A DNA stretch of 35,016 nt from Dictyoglomus sp. NZ13-RE01. Lineage in GTDB: Bacteria > Dictyoglomota > Dictyoglomia > Dictyoglomales > Dictyoglomaceae. Where the stretch lies: NCBI GenBank assembly GCA_002878375.1, contig NIRF01000015.1, positions 1-35,016 on the forward strand. Reading direction: 5' to 3'. Both the position numbers and the translations under genes were made by a program. The notes beneath the pieces are model-generated. The model saw only the letters and a program-made list of their open reading frames with translations, searched no databases and was not told where the DNA came from. Shown here piece by piece: positions 16,022 through 23,713 of this stretch (position 1 is its first letter; every line of letters starts with the position of its first letter).

Positions 16022-17851
16022 TTATTCCTTCTTTCCTATTACTTTATAGACATGAACAGGTTCTTCTTTCCCTTTTACTTTTATAAAGCCTAAATCCTCG
16101 AAATTGAAATAATCCTTTGCAAAATTAAAAGTTTCTTCGCATACTAAAATTTCTCCCCCTTTTGCAATACTTTCCAACCTTTCTGCAAGATTAACCACAG
16201 CTCCGATAGCAGTATACTCCATTCTTTGGGTAGATCCGATTGTTCCTGCAACTGCTTCACCTGTTGTTATACCCATTCCAACCTCAAATGGAGGATATCC
16301 TTTTTCTTTCCATCCCTCTCTTAATTTATTTAATGCTTCCTGTATTTCGATGGCTGTATTAATAGCTCTAATGGGAGCATTTGAGTAGAAGATTGGAGCT
16401 CCAAATAGAGCCATTATGGCATCTCCTAAGAACTTATCAACTGTTCCTTCATATTTAAATATGATCTCCGTTGCTACTGTAAAATATTCATTCAGTATCT
16501 TTGTAATCTCTTCCGGTGTGAGGATATCTGAATAGTAGGTAAAGTTTCTAATATCTGCAAACATAACACTTATCCATTGCCTTTTTGTTTGCAATAGCTC
16601 TTGTCCAGGATTTGAAAGGATTATATCAACGACCGATGATGGTACAAATCTTTGAAAAACACTCTTTAGTTCTCTTTTTTCTCTTTGTTCTTTTAGAAAA
16701 TTATATACAAGTGAAAATATGTAGGAAAAGATTATGGAAAATATTGGAGCTATTATAGGTAAAATCCATCCCCAATTAATAAAAGCTTGATTGCAAAGAA
16801 TAATATAAACAATTATTAATGCAAGTATTAGAATTAGATTAATGTATCCTGAAAAGACTTTTTTAAAGGGAATAATTGGAATTGCTATGAAAATCAATGT
16901 GATTAAGTATAAAGGTATTCCCTCGTTTAAAGGACATAGAAATTTTTTGTTCAGTAAAGTAGCAATACTATTTGCATGGATTTCTACTCCTGGCATTTTA
17001 CTTAGTCTCAAAGTAGAGCCCTTTCTTATATAGTGATAAAAGGGAGTGAAATGGGTATCATGAAGTGCCTCTGTAGTTGCTCCAATTAATACAATTTTAT
17101 CTTTGAATATTTCCTTGGGTATATTCTCTTTTAATACGTCAGAGTAGGAAAAAGTTGGAAATTTATATAATCCACCTTTATAGTTTATATAGACCAAATT
17201 ACTTGAATCTTTTGGTATTTTGGCAGTTTTTATGTATTCTAAAGGATTTAATGAAAGATAGGTAGAAACTATCAAAGTAGGAAAAGAAACATATTCTTTA
17301 TCAAATATTTTAGATGTTAGTCCAAATCTTCTTATAAAGCCGTCTTCATCATAGATAGGGTTAACTAAGCCAACCTTTGTTTTCGATGAAAATATACTTA
17401 AGGGTTCAATAAGTCTTTTAATTGTGCCAAATCTTGGATCATTAAAACTTACATAAAAGCTTGCTAAAATAGTATCTTCCCCTAATATTTTAGAAAAATC
17501 TGAGTCTATTCTCTTATCTTCTTCGGTATCAAAATACACATCAAAAGCAATAACTTTTGCTTTATAATCCCTTAATTTTTTAATTAGTTGAATATGGTAT
17601 CTTCTTGACCAAGGCCAATTTCCAAATTCCTCAATGGAGTTATCATCAATTGCAATGATAACTATAGGTTCATTAACTGGAAGCTCTCCGCGTATTTCAA
17701 ATCTCCAATCAATAGTTTTTAATTCTAAAGTCCTAAACCAAGGAATTTGCATGAGGAGAAGGGTAAGGATAAAGGTTACAATTACTATTATAACCTTTAC
17801 CCTTACCTCTACTAAAGTTCCTTTTTGTAAAGCATTAGTAAAAAGCTTCAC
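16022..17851 (-). CDS. CHASE2-domain class III adenylate cyclase
   Basis: A membrane-bound sensor cyclase of 609 residues. One transmembrane helix (~18-36), an extracytoplasmic CHASE2 domain (~40-295, with DDNSIEEFGNWPWSR), three further transmembrane helices (~311-385), then a class III cyclase domain (~425-600). Metal-binding Asp433 (FADIRNF) and Asp477 (KFLGDAIMALFG), adenine-selecting Lys473 and Thr547, and transition-state residues Asn554 and Arg558 are all present, so it should make cAMP rather than cGMP. The usual IGD is IGA (Ala551). It follows the FecR-barrel gene by 6 bases; FecR plus CHASE2-cyclase is a recurrent gene pair. A CRP-like site precedes the operon. Confidence 0.93.
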   Translation of the reverse strand: MKLFTNALQKGTLVEVRVKVIIVIVTFILTLLLMQIPWFRTLELKTIDWRFEIRGELPVNEPIVIIAIDDNSIEEFGNWPWSRRYHIQLIKKLRDYKAKVIAFDVYFDTEEDKRIDSDFSKILGEDTILASFYVSFNDPRFGTIKRLIEPLSIFSSKTKVGLVNPIYDEDGFIRRFGLTSKIFDKEYVSFPTLIVSTYLSLNPLEYIKTAKIPKDSSNLVYINYKGGLYKFPTFSYSDVLKENIPKEIFKDKIVLIGATTEALHDTHFTPFYHYIRKGSTLRLSKMPGVEIHANSIATLLNKKFLCPLNEGIPLYLITLIFIAIPIIPFKKVFSGYINLILILALIIVYIILCNQAFINWGWILPIIAPIFSIIFSYIFSLVYNFLKEQREKRELKSVFQRFVPSSVVDIILSNPGQELLQTKRQWISVMFADIRNFTYYSDILTPEEITKILNEYFTVATEIIFKYEGTVDKFLGDAIMALFGAPIFYSNAPIRAINTAIEIQEALNKLREGWKEKGYPPFEVGMGITTGEAVAGTIGSTQRMEYTAIGAVVNLAERLESIAKGGEILVCEETFNFAKDYFNFEDLGFIKVKGKEEPVHVYKVIGKKE

Positions 17852-17857
17852 TATATT

Positions 17858-19678
17858 TTAAAAGTATAACTTAGTATCTACGGAGTAGTAGTCTATTGGG
17901 TTACCATCTTTATCAAAGGTTCTTAGGATTTTGATAATTACGTCAATGTTTGAAGCAATGGGATATTGGACTTGACCAAAAAGTTTTGTATTTTCTGTTA
18001 TAAAACTAAAGGGTCCAATAGGTATATCTTTTTGCTCATAAACTAAGACGCCATTTATTCGAGGACTTAGTCTTACAGCAAGCTCGCCATGAAGAGATGG
18101 AAGTCTATCTTGTAATGATTCATACAAAATTATTAATTCTGCAATATTCATTATTTTAGAGTTTACGCCTGCTAAGATTCCATTTATTCTTGTAGATGCA
18201 GGTGTAATAGAAGGTAAATTATTTGTTTGCTTATTTTTTTCATAGAAGGCATCAAAGTATCCAAAAGTAAAATTATCGGATATACTTCTTAACTGTACTT
18301 CTCCATTAATAAATCCTAAGAATCGGGCTTGTAATCCTAAAATTATTCCGTTTTCTGATGCTACATCAGTATTTGTAAGGTTTTCTCCATTATGAATAAT
18401 TCTTTGGGCAAGAGATGCATATAAAACAATATCTTTTGATAGGAAATATCCGGCATCTGCACCAACTATTAATTGCTGTTTTGTATATGTAGCATCAAAG
18501 TCACCCATTGCATTTATTCCTACTTCAAATTTACTTAATGGTCTATAAAAGAGCCTTAATCCGTAGGTACTTAATGGATTTTCAGAGTATTCATACTCAA
18601 GCCCTTTTGAGAGATCATAAGTTAGTCTTAATCTGTAGGGGGAGGGAAGAAGTAGATTAGCTCCAAATTTTTGCTGTTGTCCTATACGTATCAGAAAAGC
18701 ATGTAATTCGTTTGTAGAGTATCTATTTGCAATTAAGCCATAACCTAAATTGAAATTATCTATTGTTCCATATCTAAGTCCAAAAGAGGGAAGATTCAAT
18801 TCTCCATATCTAAAACCTAAGTCGCAAAGGGTAACTCCCTTTCCATTTGTTAATAGAGCGACTTCTAACCCTAATTTTATAACTTGAAGATTTATCTCGG
18901 GTGTAAATGCAAATTTCATAAATAGTTCATTATCCCTGAATTCAGTTCCATAACCACCTTCATACTTAACAATATTGCTTTTAACTTCAGGTTGTATCTC
19001 CTTCATTTTCTCAGGTGGAATTTCTTCTGCTTTAGTCCTTTCCTCAATGTATCCTTTTACTCCCTCAATCTCTTTTTCTATATCTTTTCTATATTCTTGC
19101 ACATTAAAGGGTTGGATTTCTCCTAATGTACCATCTGGTTTAATATCTACCTTAAAGCCTTCGTTTATAAATTTCTCTATTCCACCAACAGCTAAATATA
19201 CAACTCCTGCAAATGTGTTTAGGAAAGTACTTCCATCCTCGTTTACTCCAATCACAAACTCTGTTCCTCTAACTCCTGCAACTGCTGTTGGTGTCTGAAT
19301 CTCTACTCTATCACCTGATTTTAGTAATTTTTCTACTGTTGCCCAAACTTTTCCTATCCAGAGCTTGAAGATTGATGTTTCTTTTTCATCTGTTTTATCT
19401 AATTGAATAATATCAAGTTGTGTGTTTGCTGTTAGTTTTAATGTTGATTTATCAGAGAAAGTTATCGTTGCAGAAGAATTTTCTTGAACCCATATTCTGT
19501 CACCAGGATATAATGGCATGTTTAGTTTAGCTTTTTGGAAAACCTCACTTCCTGCTCTTTTCACATATACATTTCCTTTTATCATTGTTATAACTGCGTA
19601 TCTTTTATCTTGGGTTTCTGCAAAAGAAATGCTGAATAGGAAGAGAAGAAGGAAAATTAACAAGAAGAAGCGTTTCAT
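17858..19678 (-). CDS. FecR-domain protein with C-terminal beta-barrel-like region
   Basis: A 606-residue exported protein. Signal peptide 1-20 (LLLFLFSISFA, cleavage before ETQ), a FecR domain ~25-180 with the signature TPTAVAGVRGTEF (129-141), a Glu/Lys-rich helix (~190-225), and ~350 residues of alternating beta strands ending in Phe, as in outer-membrane barrels. FecR domains sense or scaffold envelope signals. Encoded first in an operon with the CHASE2 cyclase, it probably supplies the periplasmic or surface end of that pathway; this is inference. There is a CRP-like site and TATAAT promoter upstream. Confidence 0.88.
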   Translation of the reverse strand: MKRFFLLIFLLLFLFSISFAETQDKRYAVITMIKGNVYVKRAGSEVFQKAKLNMPLYPGDRIWVQENSSATITFSDKSTLKLTANTQLDIIQLDKTDEKETSIFKLWIGKVWATVEKLLKSGDRVEIQTPTAVAGVRGTEFVIGVNEDGSTFLNTFAGVVYLAVGGIEKFINEGFKVDIKPDGTLGEIQPFNVQEYRKDIEKEIEGVKGYIEERTKAEEIPPEKMKEIQPEVKSNIVKYEGGYGTEFRDNELFMKFAFTPEINLQVIKLGLEVALLTNGKGVTLCDLGFRYGELNLPSFGLRYGTIDNFNLGYGLIANRYSTNELHAFLIRIGQQQKFGANLLLPSPYRLRLTYDLSKGLEYEYSENPLSTYGLRLFYRPLSKFEVGINAMGDFDATYTKQQLIVGADAGYFLSKDIVLYASLAQRIIHNGENLTNTDVASENGIILGLQARFLGFINGEVQLRSISDNFTFGYFDAFYEKNKQTNNLPSITPASTRINGILAGVNSKIMNIAELIILYESLQDRLPSLHGELAVRLSPRINGVLVYEQKDIPIGPFSFITENTKLFGQVQYPIASNIDVIIKILRTFDKDGNPIDYYSVDTKLYF

Positions 19679-19745: not shown

Positions 19746-19759
19746 GTGATCTTCGTCAC
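19746..19759 (-). promoter_or_regulatory. CRP-type operator (GTGATCTTCGTCAC)
   Basis: GTGA and TCAC half-sites with six bases between; centred at 19752.5, 28.5 bases from the 5' edge of the -10 box, exactly as at 4474-4487. Only one of 14 bases differs between the two sites. The coaX stop codon (19756-19758) lies inside it. Its operon includes the adenylate cyclase gene. Confidence 0.72.
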
Positions 19760-20517
19760 ATATTTCTTTTAAATAGATGATACAATCCTTTTAGGGTTAA
19801 ATAAGGATCTATCTCTTTTATATATTTAGTGTATGGAACTATTCTTTTTGCCCATCCACCAGTGGCTATAATTCTTGGGGTAGTTTTTAGTTCTTTAATT
19901 TGTCTTTTTAGAATTCCATCTACAAGTCCAGCAAAACCAAATACAATTCCAGCCTGCATTGCGGAGATCGTATTTTTACCAAAAGAAGATGTAGGACTTG
20001 ATATCTCAACTTGAGGCAATTTTGCAGTCTTTTCAAAAAGGGCATAGGCGGATGTACCAACTCCTGGAGCAATAGCTACTCCTAAAAATTTTTTGTTGTT
20101 AATTACGGAAAAAGTAGTTGCAGTTCCAAAGTCTACTGCAATTCCACAGCTTCCATATTCCTCATCAATGGCAACGACATTGCATATTAAATCTGCACCT
20201 ACTTCTTTAGGGTTCTCTGTGTCAATGTAAATTCCTGTTTTTATGCCAGGCTCCACAATGAATGGTTTAAAATTAAATAGAAAATTAATCGCCTCCTCAA
20301 AAACAGGAGTAAGAGAAGGAACAACGGAAGCAATTGCAACCCCTTCAATCTCTGATAACTCTATATCACATTTTTTTAAAGTCCATTCTAATTTTAGAGC
20401 ATATTCATAGTTTGTGGATTCTTTTATAGTAGCAAACTCAAAATGCTTTGAGATTTCTCCATCTTTAAAGAAGGCGATATCTATGTTTGAATTTCCAATA
20501 TCTATGGTAAGAATCAA
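19756..20517 (-). CDS. coaX: Type III pantothenate kinase
   Basis: Phosphorylates pantothenate, the first step to coenzyme A. At 253 residues it has the ASKHA-fold motifs: DIGNSNIDIAFF (5-16), PKEVGADLICN with the catalytic Asp, and AVDFGTATTFSVI. The type III enzyme is not feedback-inhibited by CoA in studied species, so control is expected elsewhere. It lies 2 bases after an ECF transporter S-component that is probably its pantothenate supplier, with a structured leader ahead of both. Confidence 0.96.
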   Translation of the reverse strand: MILTIDIGNSNIDIAFFKDGEISKHFEFATIKESTNYEYALKLEWTLKKCDIELSEIEGVAIASVVPSLTPVFEEAINFLFNFKPFIVEPGIKTGIYIDTENPKEVGADLICNVVAIDEEYGSCGIAVDFGTATTFSVINNKKFLGVAIAPGVGTSAYALFEKTAKLPQVEISSPTSSFGKNTISAMQAGIVFGFAGLVDGILKRQIKELKTTPRIIATGGWAKRIVPYTKYIKEIDPYLTLKGLYHLFKRNM

Positions 20518-20519
20518 AA

Positions 20520-21215
20520 TTAAACCTCCCTTCTTAGGAATCTCCTAATGGCTATACTTGTGGGGGTACATACAATAACTGCCAAAATTGATTCGGGAAC
20601 TCCATGAAGAATTGCAACAGAAAGAGCAGTTTCAAAATTAAAAACTCCAAACAAAACTGCAAGTCCTAAGGTGCCTACTGTATTTGTCCAACTTCCTAAA
20701 AAGGAAGCAATAGATATAGAAACTATTTCTGGATTTTTATCTTTAAGGACTTGAAAGCATAAGACTGATATTAAATAGTCTACAATAAGCCATATGTATA
20801 TAAATTGGCTAAGGTACTTATTGCCTAACCAAAATAGAAATAGAAAAATTATTAGAGATAAAACAAAAGAGCTATAAACTTTCCTTTTTTCACTTTTGCC
20901 TAAGATGTCATAAAGTCCTAAATAAACCAAACCAGATACAATACCAATAAAGGGACGAGCAGGAATTAACACCCAAAAGGGAGCAATATGACTAAAGTAC
21001 AAAACAGTTATTAAACCGAATATTAGACCAACTAATCCTCCAAATAAAGGACCAAGCACAATTCCACCAATAATAGTAGGAAGGTGCATAATAGTGGCAG
21101 CTCCAGCAGGAGTTGGAAGAGGAACAAATCCCCATTGGGTGAATCCGAGAAGAAGAGTAATTCCAGAGATAGCACCAGCAAGAGTTAAAACTTTAGGATC
21201 TTTTAAATTTAACAT
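20520..21215 (-). CDS. ECF transporter S-component, probable pantothenate type
   Basis: A 231-residue membrane protein with about six hydrophobic helices and the opening LTLAGAISGITLLLGFTQWGFVPLPTP, typical of substrate-binding (S) components of energy-coupling factor vitamin transporters. It would need the shared EcfA/A'/T module, which is not in this window. The gene is 2 bases upstream of coaX, so pantothenate is the likely substrate; the family alone would not settle this. ATG 21213-21215 follows AAAGGAGG (minus strand; plus 21223-21230). Its leader carries two hairpins described separately. Confidence 0.85.
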   Translation of the reverse strand: MLNLKDPKVLTLAGAISGITLLLGFTQWGFVPLPTPAGAATIMHLPTIIGGIVLGPLFGGLVGLIFGLITVLYFSHIAPFWVLIPARPFIGIVSGLVYLGLYDILGKSEKRKVYSSFVLSLIIFLFLFWLGNKYLSQFIYIWLIVDYLISVLCFQVLKDKNPEIVSISIASFLGSWTNTVGTLGLAVLFGVFNFETALSVAILHGVPESILAVIVCTPTSIAIRRFLRREV

Positions 21216-21325
21216 TTTAAAACCTCCTTTCCAGCTCTCCTAAAAGGAGATGCTGTATTTTTTTTAATTTTGAGTTTATTTATGTGGTCTTGCTATGGTA
21301 TTCCATATGCAAGCCACATAATTTA
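21216..21325 (-). promoter_or_regulatory. Structured 5' leader of the panT-coaX transcript (candidate riboswitch, pan-motif-like)
   Basis: In minus-strand RNA the leader opens with a three-part hairpin (21321-21280). UUAUGUGG pairs with CCACAUAA, CUUGC with GCAAG, and UAUGG with CCAUA, with an AAUA loop. One A bulges on the 5' arm and one A on the 3' arm, five pairs apart. A second hairpin follows (21255-21232): CAGC with GCUG and UCUCC with GGAGA, also with a bulged A. CUCCUUU in that second hairpin can instead pair with AAAGGAG of the Shine-Dalgarno sequence, so two exclusive folds exist. From memory, the pan RNA motif upstream of pantothenate genes is a hairpin with two bulged adenosines. 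The match is suggestive, not proven. Confidence 0.6.
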
Positions 21326-21331
21326 GGTTAT

Positions 21332-21359
21332 ATTATAATTATGAGGAAGAAAATTGCAA
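21332..21359 (-). promoter_or_regulatory. Promoter of panT-coaX
   Basis: On the minus strand TTGCAA (21359-21354), a 16-base spacer and TATAAT (21337-21332). The predicted start is near 21325, so the transcript begins directly at the bulged-A hairpin. The promoter lies inside the first codons of the divergent radical SAM gene. Confidence 0.65.
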
Positions 21360-22582
21360 TAGTTATATATTATACAAAAGAGAATAGATATAGTTACAAT
21401 GCTTTATTGGGAGCATTAGAGAACTTGACTTTTTTTGATGAATTAGAAATATTCTTATGTTATAAGAAAGATGAGTTTTTCTCTAAGATTAATGATATCA
21501 AAGGAAAATATGAGAGGGTTATCATACTCCTGTCTTTTTTTACAACACAATTGTGGGAATTCAGAGAAATAATTGGGAAGATAAGAGAAATAAAAACTGA
21601 AAATACTTATATTGTTGCCGGTGGTCCCCATCCTACAGGTGATCCTTATGGTGTATTGAAGATGGGTTGTGATTATGTAGCTATTGGAGAAGGCGAAGAG
21701 CTAATTTTAAAACTGGTTGGAGATATTTTAGCGGGCAAAGATATTGGAGATTTAATATTAAAGTCTGAAAACAAATTTGTAGATTTAGATAAGTTTAATC
21801 CCTTTTCTCTAAAATTTGGTAAGTTTGGACCTATAGAGATAACAAGAGGTTGTCCATTTATGTGTTTCTATTGTCAGACCCCTAATATTTTTGGAGTGAA
21901 GGTGAGGCATAGAAGTGTTGAAAAAATATGTGAATTAGTGGAGATTATGAATAAAAGAAATTTAAAGGATATTAGGTTTATAACACCAAATGCCTTTTCT
22001 TATGGTTCAAAAGATGGTAAAAATATTAACCTAAAAGAAATAGAGAGGTTACTTGAAAATATTAGAAGAATTATTGGTAAAAGTGGAAAAATATATTTTG
22101 GGACGTTTCCTTCAGAAGTAAGACCAGAACATGTTAATGATGATACAATCAGATTAATTAAAGAGTATACTGATAATGATAATTTAGTGATTGGTGCACA
22201 ATCTGGAAGCCCAAGAATTCTAAAACTTATTAATAGGGGACATACTGTTGATGATGTTTATAATGCAGTGGAAATTATAATTAAGAATAATTTAAAGGCT
22301 AATGTAGACATTATTTTTGGACTTCCATATGAAGAGGAAGAGGATATAAAACTTACCATCAAGTTTATTTTAGATCTTACTAAAATGGGAGCTAAAGTTC
22401 ATGCTCACACTTTTATGCCACTTCCTCAAACATTTTTTGAAAAGATGCCGGCAGGCAAAATAAATAATGAGCTTTTAAAAACATTAAATAAGCTGATACC
22501 TAAGGGACTTGTTTTTGGTAATTGGAAAAAGCAAGAAGAATTAGGAAAGAAAATAGAAGAATATTTAAAAACTAAAACTTAG
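21341..22582 (+). CDS. B12-binding/radical SAM protein, MJ_1487-like (TIGR04013 type)
   Basis: A radical SAM enzyme of 413 residues from the start chosen here, ATG 21341 (MRKKIAIVIYY). A longer frame from GTG 21284 would run through the divergent promoter and hairpin and is unlikely. Residues ~1-140 are a cobalamin-binding-like Rossmann domain (GGPHPTGDP, 94-102), though the DxHxxG cobalamin motif is absent. Residues ~160-380 are the radical SAM barrel, with cluster cysteines C171, C175 and C178 (TRGCPFMCFYCQ). I recall the family as TIGR04013; no substrate is known. No clear Shine-Dalgarno sequence precedes the ATG, and a TATATT lies 6 bases upstream, so it may be leaderless. Its 3' end overlaps the convergent gene by 18 bases. 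Confidence 0.85.
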   Translation: MRKKIAIVIYYTKENRYSYNALLGALENLTFFDELEIFLCYKKDEFFSKINDIKGKYERVIILLSFFTTQLWEFREIIGKIREIKTENTYIVAGGPHPTGDPYGVLKMGCDYVAIGEGEELILKLVGDILAGKDIGDLILKSENKFVDLDKFNPFSLKFGKFGPIEITRGCPFMCFYCQTPNIFGVKVRHRSVEKICELVEIMNKRNLKDIRFITPNAFSYGSKDGKNINLKEIERLLENIRRIIGKSGKIYFGTFPSEVRPEHVNDDTIRLIKEYTDNDNLVIGAQSGSPRILKLINRGHTVDDVYNAVEIIIKNNLKANVDIIFGLPYEEEEDIKLTIKFILDLTKMGAKVHAHTFMPLPQTFFEKMPAGKINNELLKTLNKLIPKGLVFGNWKKQEELGKKIEEYLKTKT

Positions 22583-23713
22583 TTGGCTTAGTTCTTTAGG
22601 CTTTTTACCATTTATCAATATGAAGGGAGAGATTTTATCTATAGGTATGTCTAATTTTTCTAAATCTTTAATATCTTTTATTAACGATGTTTTTCTTTGA
22701 TTTACTATCCTTCTTGCCCTTATAGGTCCTATTCCTGGCACTCTTAAAAGATCTTCGTAACTTGCTTTATTAATATCAATAGGGAAAAATTCAGGATGAT
22801 TTAAAGCCCAAATTAATTTTGGGTCCTTATCTAAATAAAGATTTCCCTTTTCATCAAATATTATATCTTCCAAACTGAAATGGTACTTTCTTAATAGAAA
22901 ATCTGCCTGGTAAAGTCTATGTTCTCTCCATGTAGGGGTTGGTGGTAAGTCTTCTAAGGGAGTATTGGAAATAGGTTGAAAAGCACTATAATATGCTCTG
23001 TTTAGATTATAATCCTTATAAAGGTTATTAACTATACTTAATATTTCGTAATCTTTTTCATTACTTGCTCCTACCACTAATTGGGTAGTAAATCCATATT
23101 TAGGTTTTAAACCTTTTGAAAAAAGCTTATTAATCAAGCCAATCTTTTTCACTAAATGACTAAAATTTTTCTCTGGGGCAATTTTTTCTAAATACTTTGC
23201 ATCAGGAGCTTCGATATTAATTGAGACTCTATCTGAAAGTTCTAAAGCCCTAATTATATAATCCTCGTCTGATTCTGGAAGTATTTTTAGATGTATATAG
23301 CCAGTAAATTTATATTTTTCTCTTAGTATCTCTGCTACCTTAAGCATATCTTCCATTGTTCTTTTTGGTGATTTAGTAACTGCAGAACTTAAAAATAGCC
23401 CATCTACTAAGTTCCTTCTTTTCATTTCTAAAAATAGTTTTACTAATTCATCTACACTAAAACTGATTCTTTCAAAAGAGCGTTCTCTTCTATTTGCACA
23501 ATAGTAGCAGTTATGAATACAATCGTTAGATAAAAGAGTTTTAAGTAATCTTACTGTTCTTCCATCTGGAAGAGTTGTGGGGTATATCCAGCCATTAATA
23601 GTACTTTTTCTTCTTATGGCTGATGGATCACATAAATAAGACCCACAAAGATCAAATTGTGCATCTTTTGTTAATATTTTTAATTTTTCCTCAATATGCA
23701 TATTCTTTCTCAA
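22565..23713 (-). CDS. Putative DNA modification/repair radical SAM protein with C-terminal HhH (TIGR03916-like)
   Basis: A 382-residue radical SAM protein. Cluster cysteines are C65, C69 and C72 (NDCIHNCYYCANRR); the barrel follows with FLSSAVTKSP and INIEAPD. The C-terminus (~312-340) is a helix-hairpin-helix DNA-binding motif, INKASYEDLLRVPGIGPIRA. This layout matches, from memory, the family linked to uracil-DNA glycosylase and called 'putative DNA modification/repair radical SAM protein'. The usual partner gene is not next to it; instead a small unknown gene overlaps its start by 4 bases. The reaction is not known. Confidence 0.87.
   Translation of the reverse strand: MRKNMHIEEKLKILTKDAQFDLCGSYLCDPSAIRRKSTINGWIYPTTLPDGRTVRLLKTLLSNDCIHNCYYCANRRERSFERISFSVDELVKLFLEMKRRNLVDGLFLSSAVTKSPKRTMEDMLKVAEILREKYKFTGYIHLKILPESDEDYIIRALELSDRVSINIEAPDAKYLEKIAPEKNFSHLVKKIGLINKLFSKGLKPKYGFTTQLVVGASNEKDYEILSIVNNLYKDYNLNRAYYSAFQPISNTPLEDLPPTPTWREHRLYQADFLLRKYHFSLEDIIFDEKGNLYLDKDPKLIWALNHPEFFPIDINKASYEDLLRVPGIGPIRARRIVNQRKTSLIKDIKDLEKLDIPIDKISPFILINGKKPKELSQLSFSF

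Follow-up and report, generated by a model that had tools for sequence, protein, structure and literature searches.

Since its description in 2010, the pan motif has remained an orphan, and we know of no protein that binds it. The phyla in which Weinberg et al. found it were reportedly Firmicutes, Chloroflexi, and Proteobacteria. The published description covers three phyla and operons with panB, panC, or aspartate decarboxylase genes only, and its authors suggested a dimeric protein from the tandem arrangement of the hairpins (PMC2864571). The family also appears in an RNA-seq study, where it is listed with panBCD (PMC5670726). Within the literature that we searched, which has subscription journals outside its coverage, we found no report of pan RNA before transport or kinase genes, and neither control by pantothenate status nor a bound partner of pan RNA was established.

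Here we compare these RNAs with a leader on the minus strand (21325-21216) of the window, by which we mean the whole 35,016-nucleotide stretch of Dictyoglomus sp. NZ13-RE01 DNA that was analyzed. We consider it likely that a tandem, divergent pan RNA in this leader controls translation of an operon for a PanT-like S component and CoaX, with the operon off when the hairpins are held. Interpreting the computed structure, covariation, pan kinship, gene context, promoter, and Shine-Dalgarno (SD) register, we infer the sign of this control, its translational level, and the range of its ligands.

The S component/coaX operon and its leader

The gene directly behind the leader (20520-21215, minus strand) is identified by profile matches as a PanT-like S component of an ECF transporter (PF12822). 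It is followed by coaX (19756-20517, minus strand), encoding a type III pantothenate kinase (NF009855, 269 bits against a cut-off of 233), which begins 2 nt past the end of the S component, and the two genes adjoin in all Dictyoglomota that we examined. When compared with the PDB, the S-component profile matched only two chains, 4RFS at E 0.0024 and, as a weak hit, 6ZG3 at E 0.4. Both chains come from structures of the pantothenate transporter ECF-PanT, in which N131 of 4RFS is a binding residue (PMC7755397). The invariant N178 of the S component aligns with N131, the position of W64 is occupied by F, and R95 is not conserved. This distant homology and the coaX neighbor lead us to infer that the S component carries pantothenate, in line with the transport and kinase context that the original prediction had proposed.

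The leader shares its intergenic region with a divergent B12-binding/radical SAM gene of unknown function (TIGR04013; 21341-22582, plus strand). A second gene, at 22565-23713 on the minus strand, encodes a putative DNA modification/repair radical SAM protein (TIGR03916, with a uracil-DNA glycosylase-like partner, going by the name). Downstream of coaX, the stretch 16022-19678 (minus strand) holds a gene for a FecR-domain protein and, directly 3' of it, a CHASE2-adenylate/guanylate cyclase gene.

The predicted promoter of the operon is of the sigma-70 type (21332-21359, minus strand), with a -35 box TTGCAA (21359-21354), a 16-nt spacer, and a perfect -10 box TATAAT (21337-21332) that ends 10 nt upstream of the first hairpin, HP1. 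Each of the seven Dictyoglomota leaders has a perfect TATAAT at a distance of 6-12 nt before HP1, and a transcript start near 21325, at the base of HP1, is plausible. HP1, the upstream pan hairpin (21280-21321, minus strand), consists of helices of 8 bp (21321-21314/21287-21280), 5 bp (21313-21309/21293-21289), and 5 bp (21307-21303/21298-21294) closed by an AAUA loop. One A is bulged on each arm, A21308 on the 5' arm and A21288 on the 3' arm, exactly as the original prediction had drawn the hairpin on this strand. The fold of HP1 has an energy of -22.5 kcal/mol and a z-score of -7.7, with no shuffle equally stable, and the whole leader folds with a z-score of -6.5.

An A-rich linker that is unalignable between genera (21256-21279, minus strand) leads from HP1 to the SD-proximal pan-type hairpin, HP2 (21231-21255, minus strand). 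HP2 is made of CAGC/GCUG, the bulged A21251, UCUCCU/AGGAGA, and a UUU loop, A21251 being the one bulge that had been predicted for a second hairpin. Alone, HP2 is weaker (z -2.2), and it lacks the outer helix seen in full pan hairpins, so that a second A, at 21230, is not a bulge. In position, this A is homologous to the A that full pan hairpins bulge out on the 3' arm, and its register, GGAAN-GGAG, is shared by the S-component leaders compared. The SD sequence GGAGG (21223-21227, minus strand) lies 7 nt upstream of the ATG at 21215. In a geometric scan, the last 130 nt of the leader scored 14, a value reached by none of 2000 shuffles.

We compared the leaders of orthologous S-component genes from six further Dictyoglomota and one genome of another family. 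HP1 and HP2 were present in all eight orthologous leaders, including seven of seven in Dictyoglomota. Among the latter, compensatory changes on both sides were seen at 6 of 11 HP1 pairs and compensatory changes at 6 of 10 HP2 pairs, which supplies the covariation in relatives on which the original prediction had been staked, and both bulged A residues of HP1 were invariant. The covariation score of HP1 was 0.52 compared with 0.26 in shuffled data (0 of 500 shuffles reached the observed value), and slid controls gave 0-1 pairs. Padded alignments were used for the hairpins; MAFFT slid on such short sequences. We did not rely on a covariation count over 38 hairpins, which for the middle and apical helices amounts to a circular argument, the hairpins having been selected by pairing. 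A pattern scan for HP1 returned the S-component leader as the sole site per Dictyoglomota genome in which the matched apical arms pair (judged by eye).

HP1 could instead act at the DNA level, as a palindromic operator bound by a dimeric repressor, since its arms form a near-perfect inverted repeat beside the promoter and their covariation fits a DNA palindrome as well. When tested, such a protein site, which the original prediction had raised against itself, was not borne out. The hairpin varies in length from 27 to 37 nt, including a variable loop, and G-U pairing is frequent (22 of 38 cells at one pair). On the transcribed strand, every bulged residue is an A, which also agrees with the minus-strand reading proposed at the outset. 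In addition, the same hairpin type recurs at the SD, and HP1 lies downstream of the -10 box. We regard an operator as extremely unlikely and read HP1 as an RNA element.

Kinship with pan RNA in Dictyoglomota and Bacillota

Out of 4227 Rfam families, pan (RF01749) was the top match on the window leader, in the right place and on the right strand. The match scored 23.5 bits, below the gathering cut-off of 36.2 bits, and its E-value of about 0.06 holds for 351 nt only. Two orthologous leaders score above this cut-off, L005 (37.2 bits, representing the L005/L046 lineage) and L047 (42.3 bits), and an S component and coaX are downstream there too. We also trained a hairpin model on Bacillota and panB hairpins only and used it, unfiltered, to search 71.7 kb comprising the window and loci from Dictyoglomota and the L005, L046, and L047 lineages. 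With hits accepted up to an E-value of 10, its 13 matches were all leader hairpins, including both in the window (HP1, 12.3 bits; HP2, 13.3 bits, match 21259-21227), and the 46 matches of a combined hairpin model in 260 kb also all fell within leaders. The proposed likeness to pan is thus upheld, and the proposed tandem arrangement is recovered by a model that had seen no Dictyoglomota.

Feature by feature, HP1 has two opposite-arm bulged A residues, 5 bp apart, and HP2 has only the 5'-arm bulge; the copies are in tandem, their stems carry compensatory changes, and what follows them is an S component with coaX, not a panB/panC/panD operon. Judged from sequence, homology via intermediate orthologs makes the window leader a divergent pan RNA, though its own score does not make it a formal Rfam member. 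The kind of element is already known; its novelty here lies in the phylum Dictyoglomota, in the setting before transport and kinase genes, and in the SD-proximal form. Rfam's pan model is tied to one tandem spacing and misses many members. Other pan-scoring places in genome G000 were rejected as chance matches (L019, inside an ATP synthase-like coding sequence, and L035).

HP1 starts only a few nucleotides from the predicted 5' end, and thermophile mRNAs may need 5' stabilization. HP1 and HP2 could then be constitutive stabilizers of the mRNA 5' end without a sensing role. We find this very unlikely, since two bulged A residues kept at a fixed 5-bp distance across phyla would be unexpected in a stabilizer, as would a tandem arrangement and a restriction to pantothenate genes. 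A regulatory pan RNA remains our preferred reading.

A scan of our genome collection yielded 35 S-component loci. Many of those in Bacillota carry CGU-CCGGC-A-CCC...GGG-GCUGG-A-ACG-GAGG directly at the SD, together with a second pan hairpin 55-90 nt upstream. In a first genome survey, the seven best-placed pan matches were upstream of panB, and one more was located before a ketopantoate-reductase-like gene. Pan RNA at E up to 0.01 was found in 181 of 399 Bacillota-type genomes.

Individual Bacillota loci show further gene arrangements. At L146 (969-1052), a pan RNA over the cut-off lies 8 nt upstream of a PanT-type S component, with coaX next. Pan RNAs over the cut-off also precede BioY-family (PanU-like) S components at L139, with coaX about 1 kb further, and at L155. 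In B. subtilis, the S component for pantothenate is PanU (PMC11487621), and its placement in the BioY family is our own reading of the discussion in that paper. At L145 (G353:C1:11440-11526), a pan RNA and a terminator are upstream of an OPT-family transporter, possibly a new pantothenate- or pantetheine-related importer. In several Bacillota, a family S58 peptidase gene (PF03576) is just upstream of the PanT-like S component (L050, 1617-2618; L053, 1770-2900; L064, 1733-2917), and the upstream pan hairpin may overlap or directly follow the end of this gene. Two CoaX paralogs occur in G062, G063, G066, and G075, and a diverged copy is directly upstream of the S component in L052, L062, and L065.

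Pantothenate supply and control of translation

Gene content in the genomes with these leaders suggests that pantothenate is obtained from outside. We found panB absent from all seven Dictyoglomota and from G052, G060, and G061, and panC absent from the same genomes save for a 20-bit fragment in G005. The host Dictyoglomota appear unable to make pantothenate and to need an external supply. With panB and panC absent, the pan RNAs there would be independent of PanB, PanC, and the ketopantoate and pantoate that these enzymes make, which removes all four as necessary partners of pan RNA. This leaves pantothenate itself, or something made from it such as phosphopantothenate or later compounds of the CoA pathway, as the probable signal. 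No type I pantothenate kinase scored over the cut-off in Dictyoglomota, G052, G060, or G061, and type III kinases escape inhibition by CoA (PMC12570885). Given no type I kinase and no CoA feedback on type III, control of expression would be a natural substitute.

In the mechanism that we propose, transcription would start just upstream of HP1. When pantothenate or its product is sufficient, a putative sensor, which may be the metabolite itself or an RNA-binding protein acting as a dimer, would hold both hairpins, gripping them through the bulged A residues. The end of HP2 lies right in front of the SD, and a held HP2 would block the 30S subunit, lowering uptake and kinase. When the vitamin is short, HP2 would be free to melt and translation could proceed. 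Folding models leave the SD partly open while HP2 is formed, so HP2 alone would be insufficient and a bound partner would be needed for strong repression.

The biosynthesis-type pan leaders point to the same sign. Of 45 such leaders, 44 carry a terminator after the last hairpin, and the 5' half of this terminator shows complementarity to the 3' strand of pan (duplex mean -10.1 compared with -7.1 kcal/mol in shuffled sequences; 14 of 44 singly at p 0.05). The combined p of 1.7e-12 is overstated, as the 44 leaders are related. Because the pan 3' strand competes with the 5' half of the terminator, a formed hairpin would free the terminator and cause termination. A terminator would not fit into the S-component leaders, where the hairpin stops at the SD in the constant register GGAAN-GGAG. 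We note that this register was read separately in L005, L045, and L047, where the script chose a later GGAG, and that L062 has GAGAAC-GGAG, with one base different before the A. Together, the terminator-ending and SD-ending arrangements suggest that a held hairpin means off in both, a sign that can be tested with simple reporters.

Control could also run the other way, with HP2 leaving the SD free (on) and alternating with a CUCCUUU/AAAGGAG helix that hides it (off), HP1 tipping the balance. Of this switch, as put forward in the original prediction, the part that stands is the pairing itself: this helix exists in the window, only 2.0 kcal/mol worse than HP2, an alternative SD helix is also long in L006, and the 3' arm of HP2 imitates an SD in most relatives. 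However, the SD-hiding fold is 2.7-7.1 kcal/mol worse than HP2 in six relatives, and Bacillota HP2 hairpins of the same register have no CUCC arm for it. In the folding model of the window, the SD and the HP2 region showed pairing of 0.00 at 37 C, rising to 0.18 at 73 C. With its alternative fold inferior in the window and in relatives, the SD-sequestering switch is not favored, and we consider it unlikely. The register of the hairpin beside the SD suggests the opposite sign to that switch, namely that a held hairpin turns the operon off.

Under repression by held hairpins, CoaX itself, which is dimeric and lacks CoA feedback, could be the pan-binding sensor, although we think this rather improbable. 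Substrate- or product-occupied CoaX would then hold the tandem hairpins and shut either the synthesis genes, through the terminator, or its own uptake operon, through the SD. A coaX gene is present in 178 of 181 pan-bearing and 187 of 218 pan-less Bacillota-type genomes (n=399), a correlative difference with a p of 2.6e-6 that ignores kinship. The three pan-bearing genomes without coaX are fragmented drafts in which a type I kinase was not found either. In a mixed genome set, coaX occurred in 56 of 60 genomes, hence co-occurrence there is uninformative.

Comparison with described leader RNAs

Several known regulatory leaders resemble parts of this system. ANTAR-target tandem hairpins and PyrR-binding loops are small leader hairpins with conserved unpaired purines that are recognized by proteins. 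The likeness to the window leader lies in these features, with no matching sequence family in the window; in the Rfam search, the PyrR family reached only 18.3 bits on the leader against a cut-off of 54. Vitamin riboswitches, such as those for TPP, precede S components of ECF transporters. The leader feedback control of an S component proposed here would be similar, but it would involve two hairpins of about 30 nt and no large aptamer.

The closest likeness is to pan RNA (RF01749; PMC2864571), which shares the tandem hairpins, the opposite-arm bulged A residues around a 5-bp helix, the 5' UTR location, and the association with pantothenate genes. The Dictyoglomota leader offers a compact thermophile RNA of this kind for binding studies. 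Unlike published pan RNAs, it stands before transport and kinase genes and not before panB, panC, or panD. It also differs from full pan RNA in its second hairpin, which lacks the outer helix and the second bulge and, with no terminator behind it, abuts the SD.
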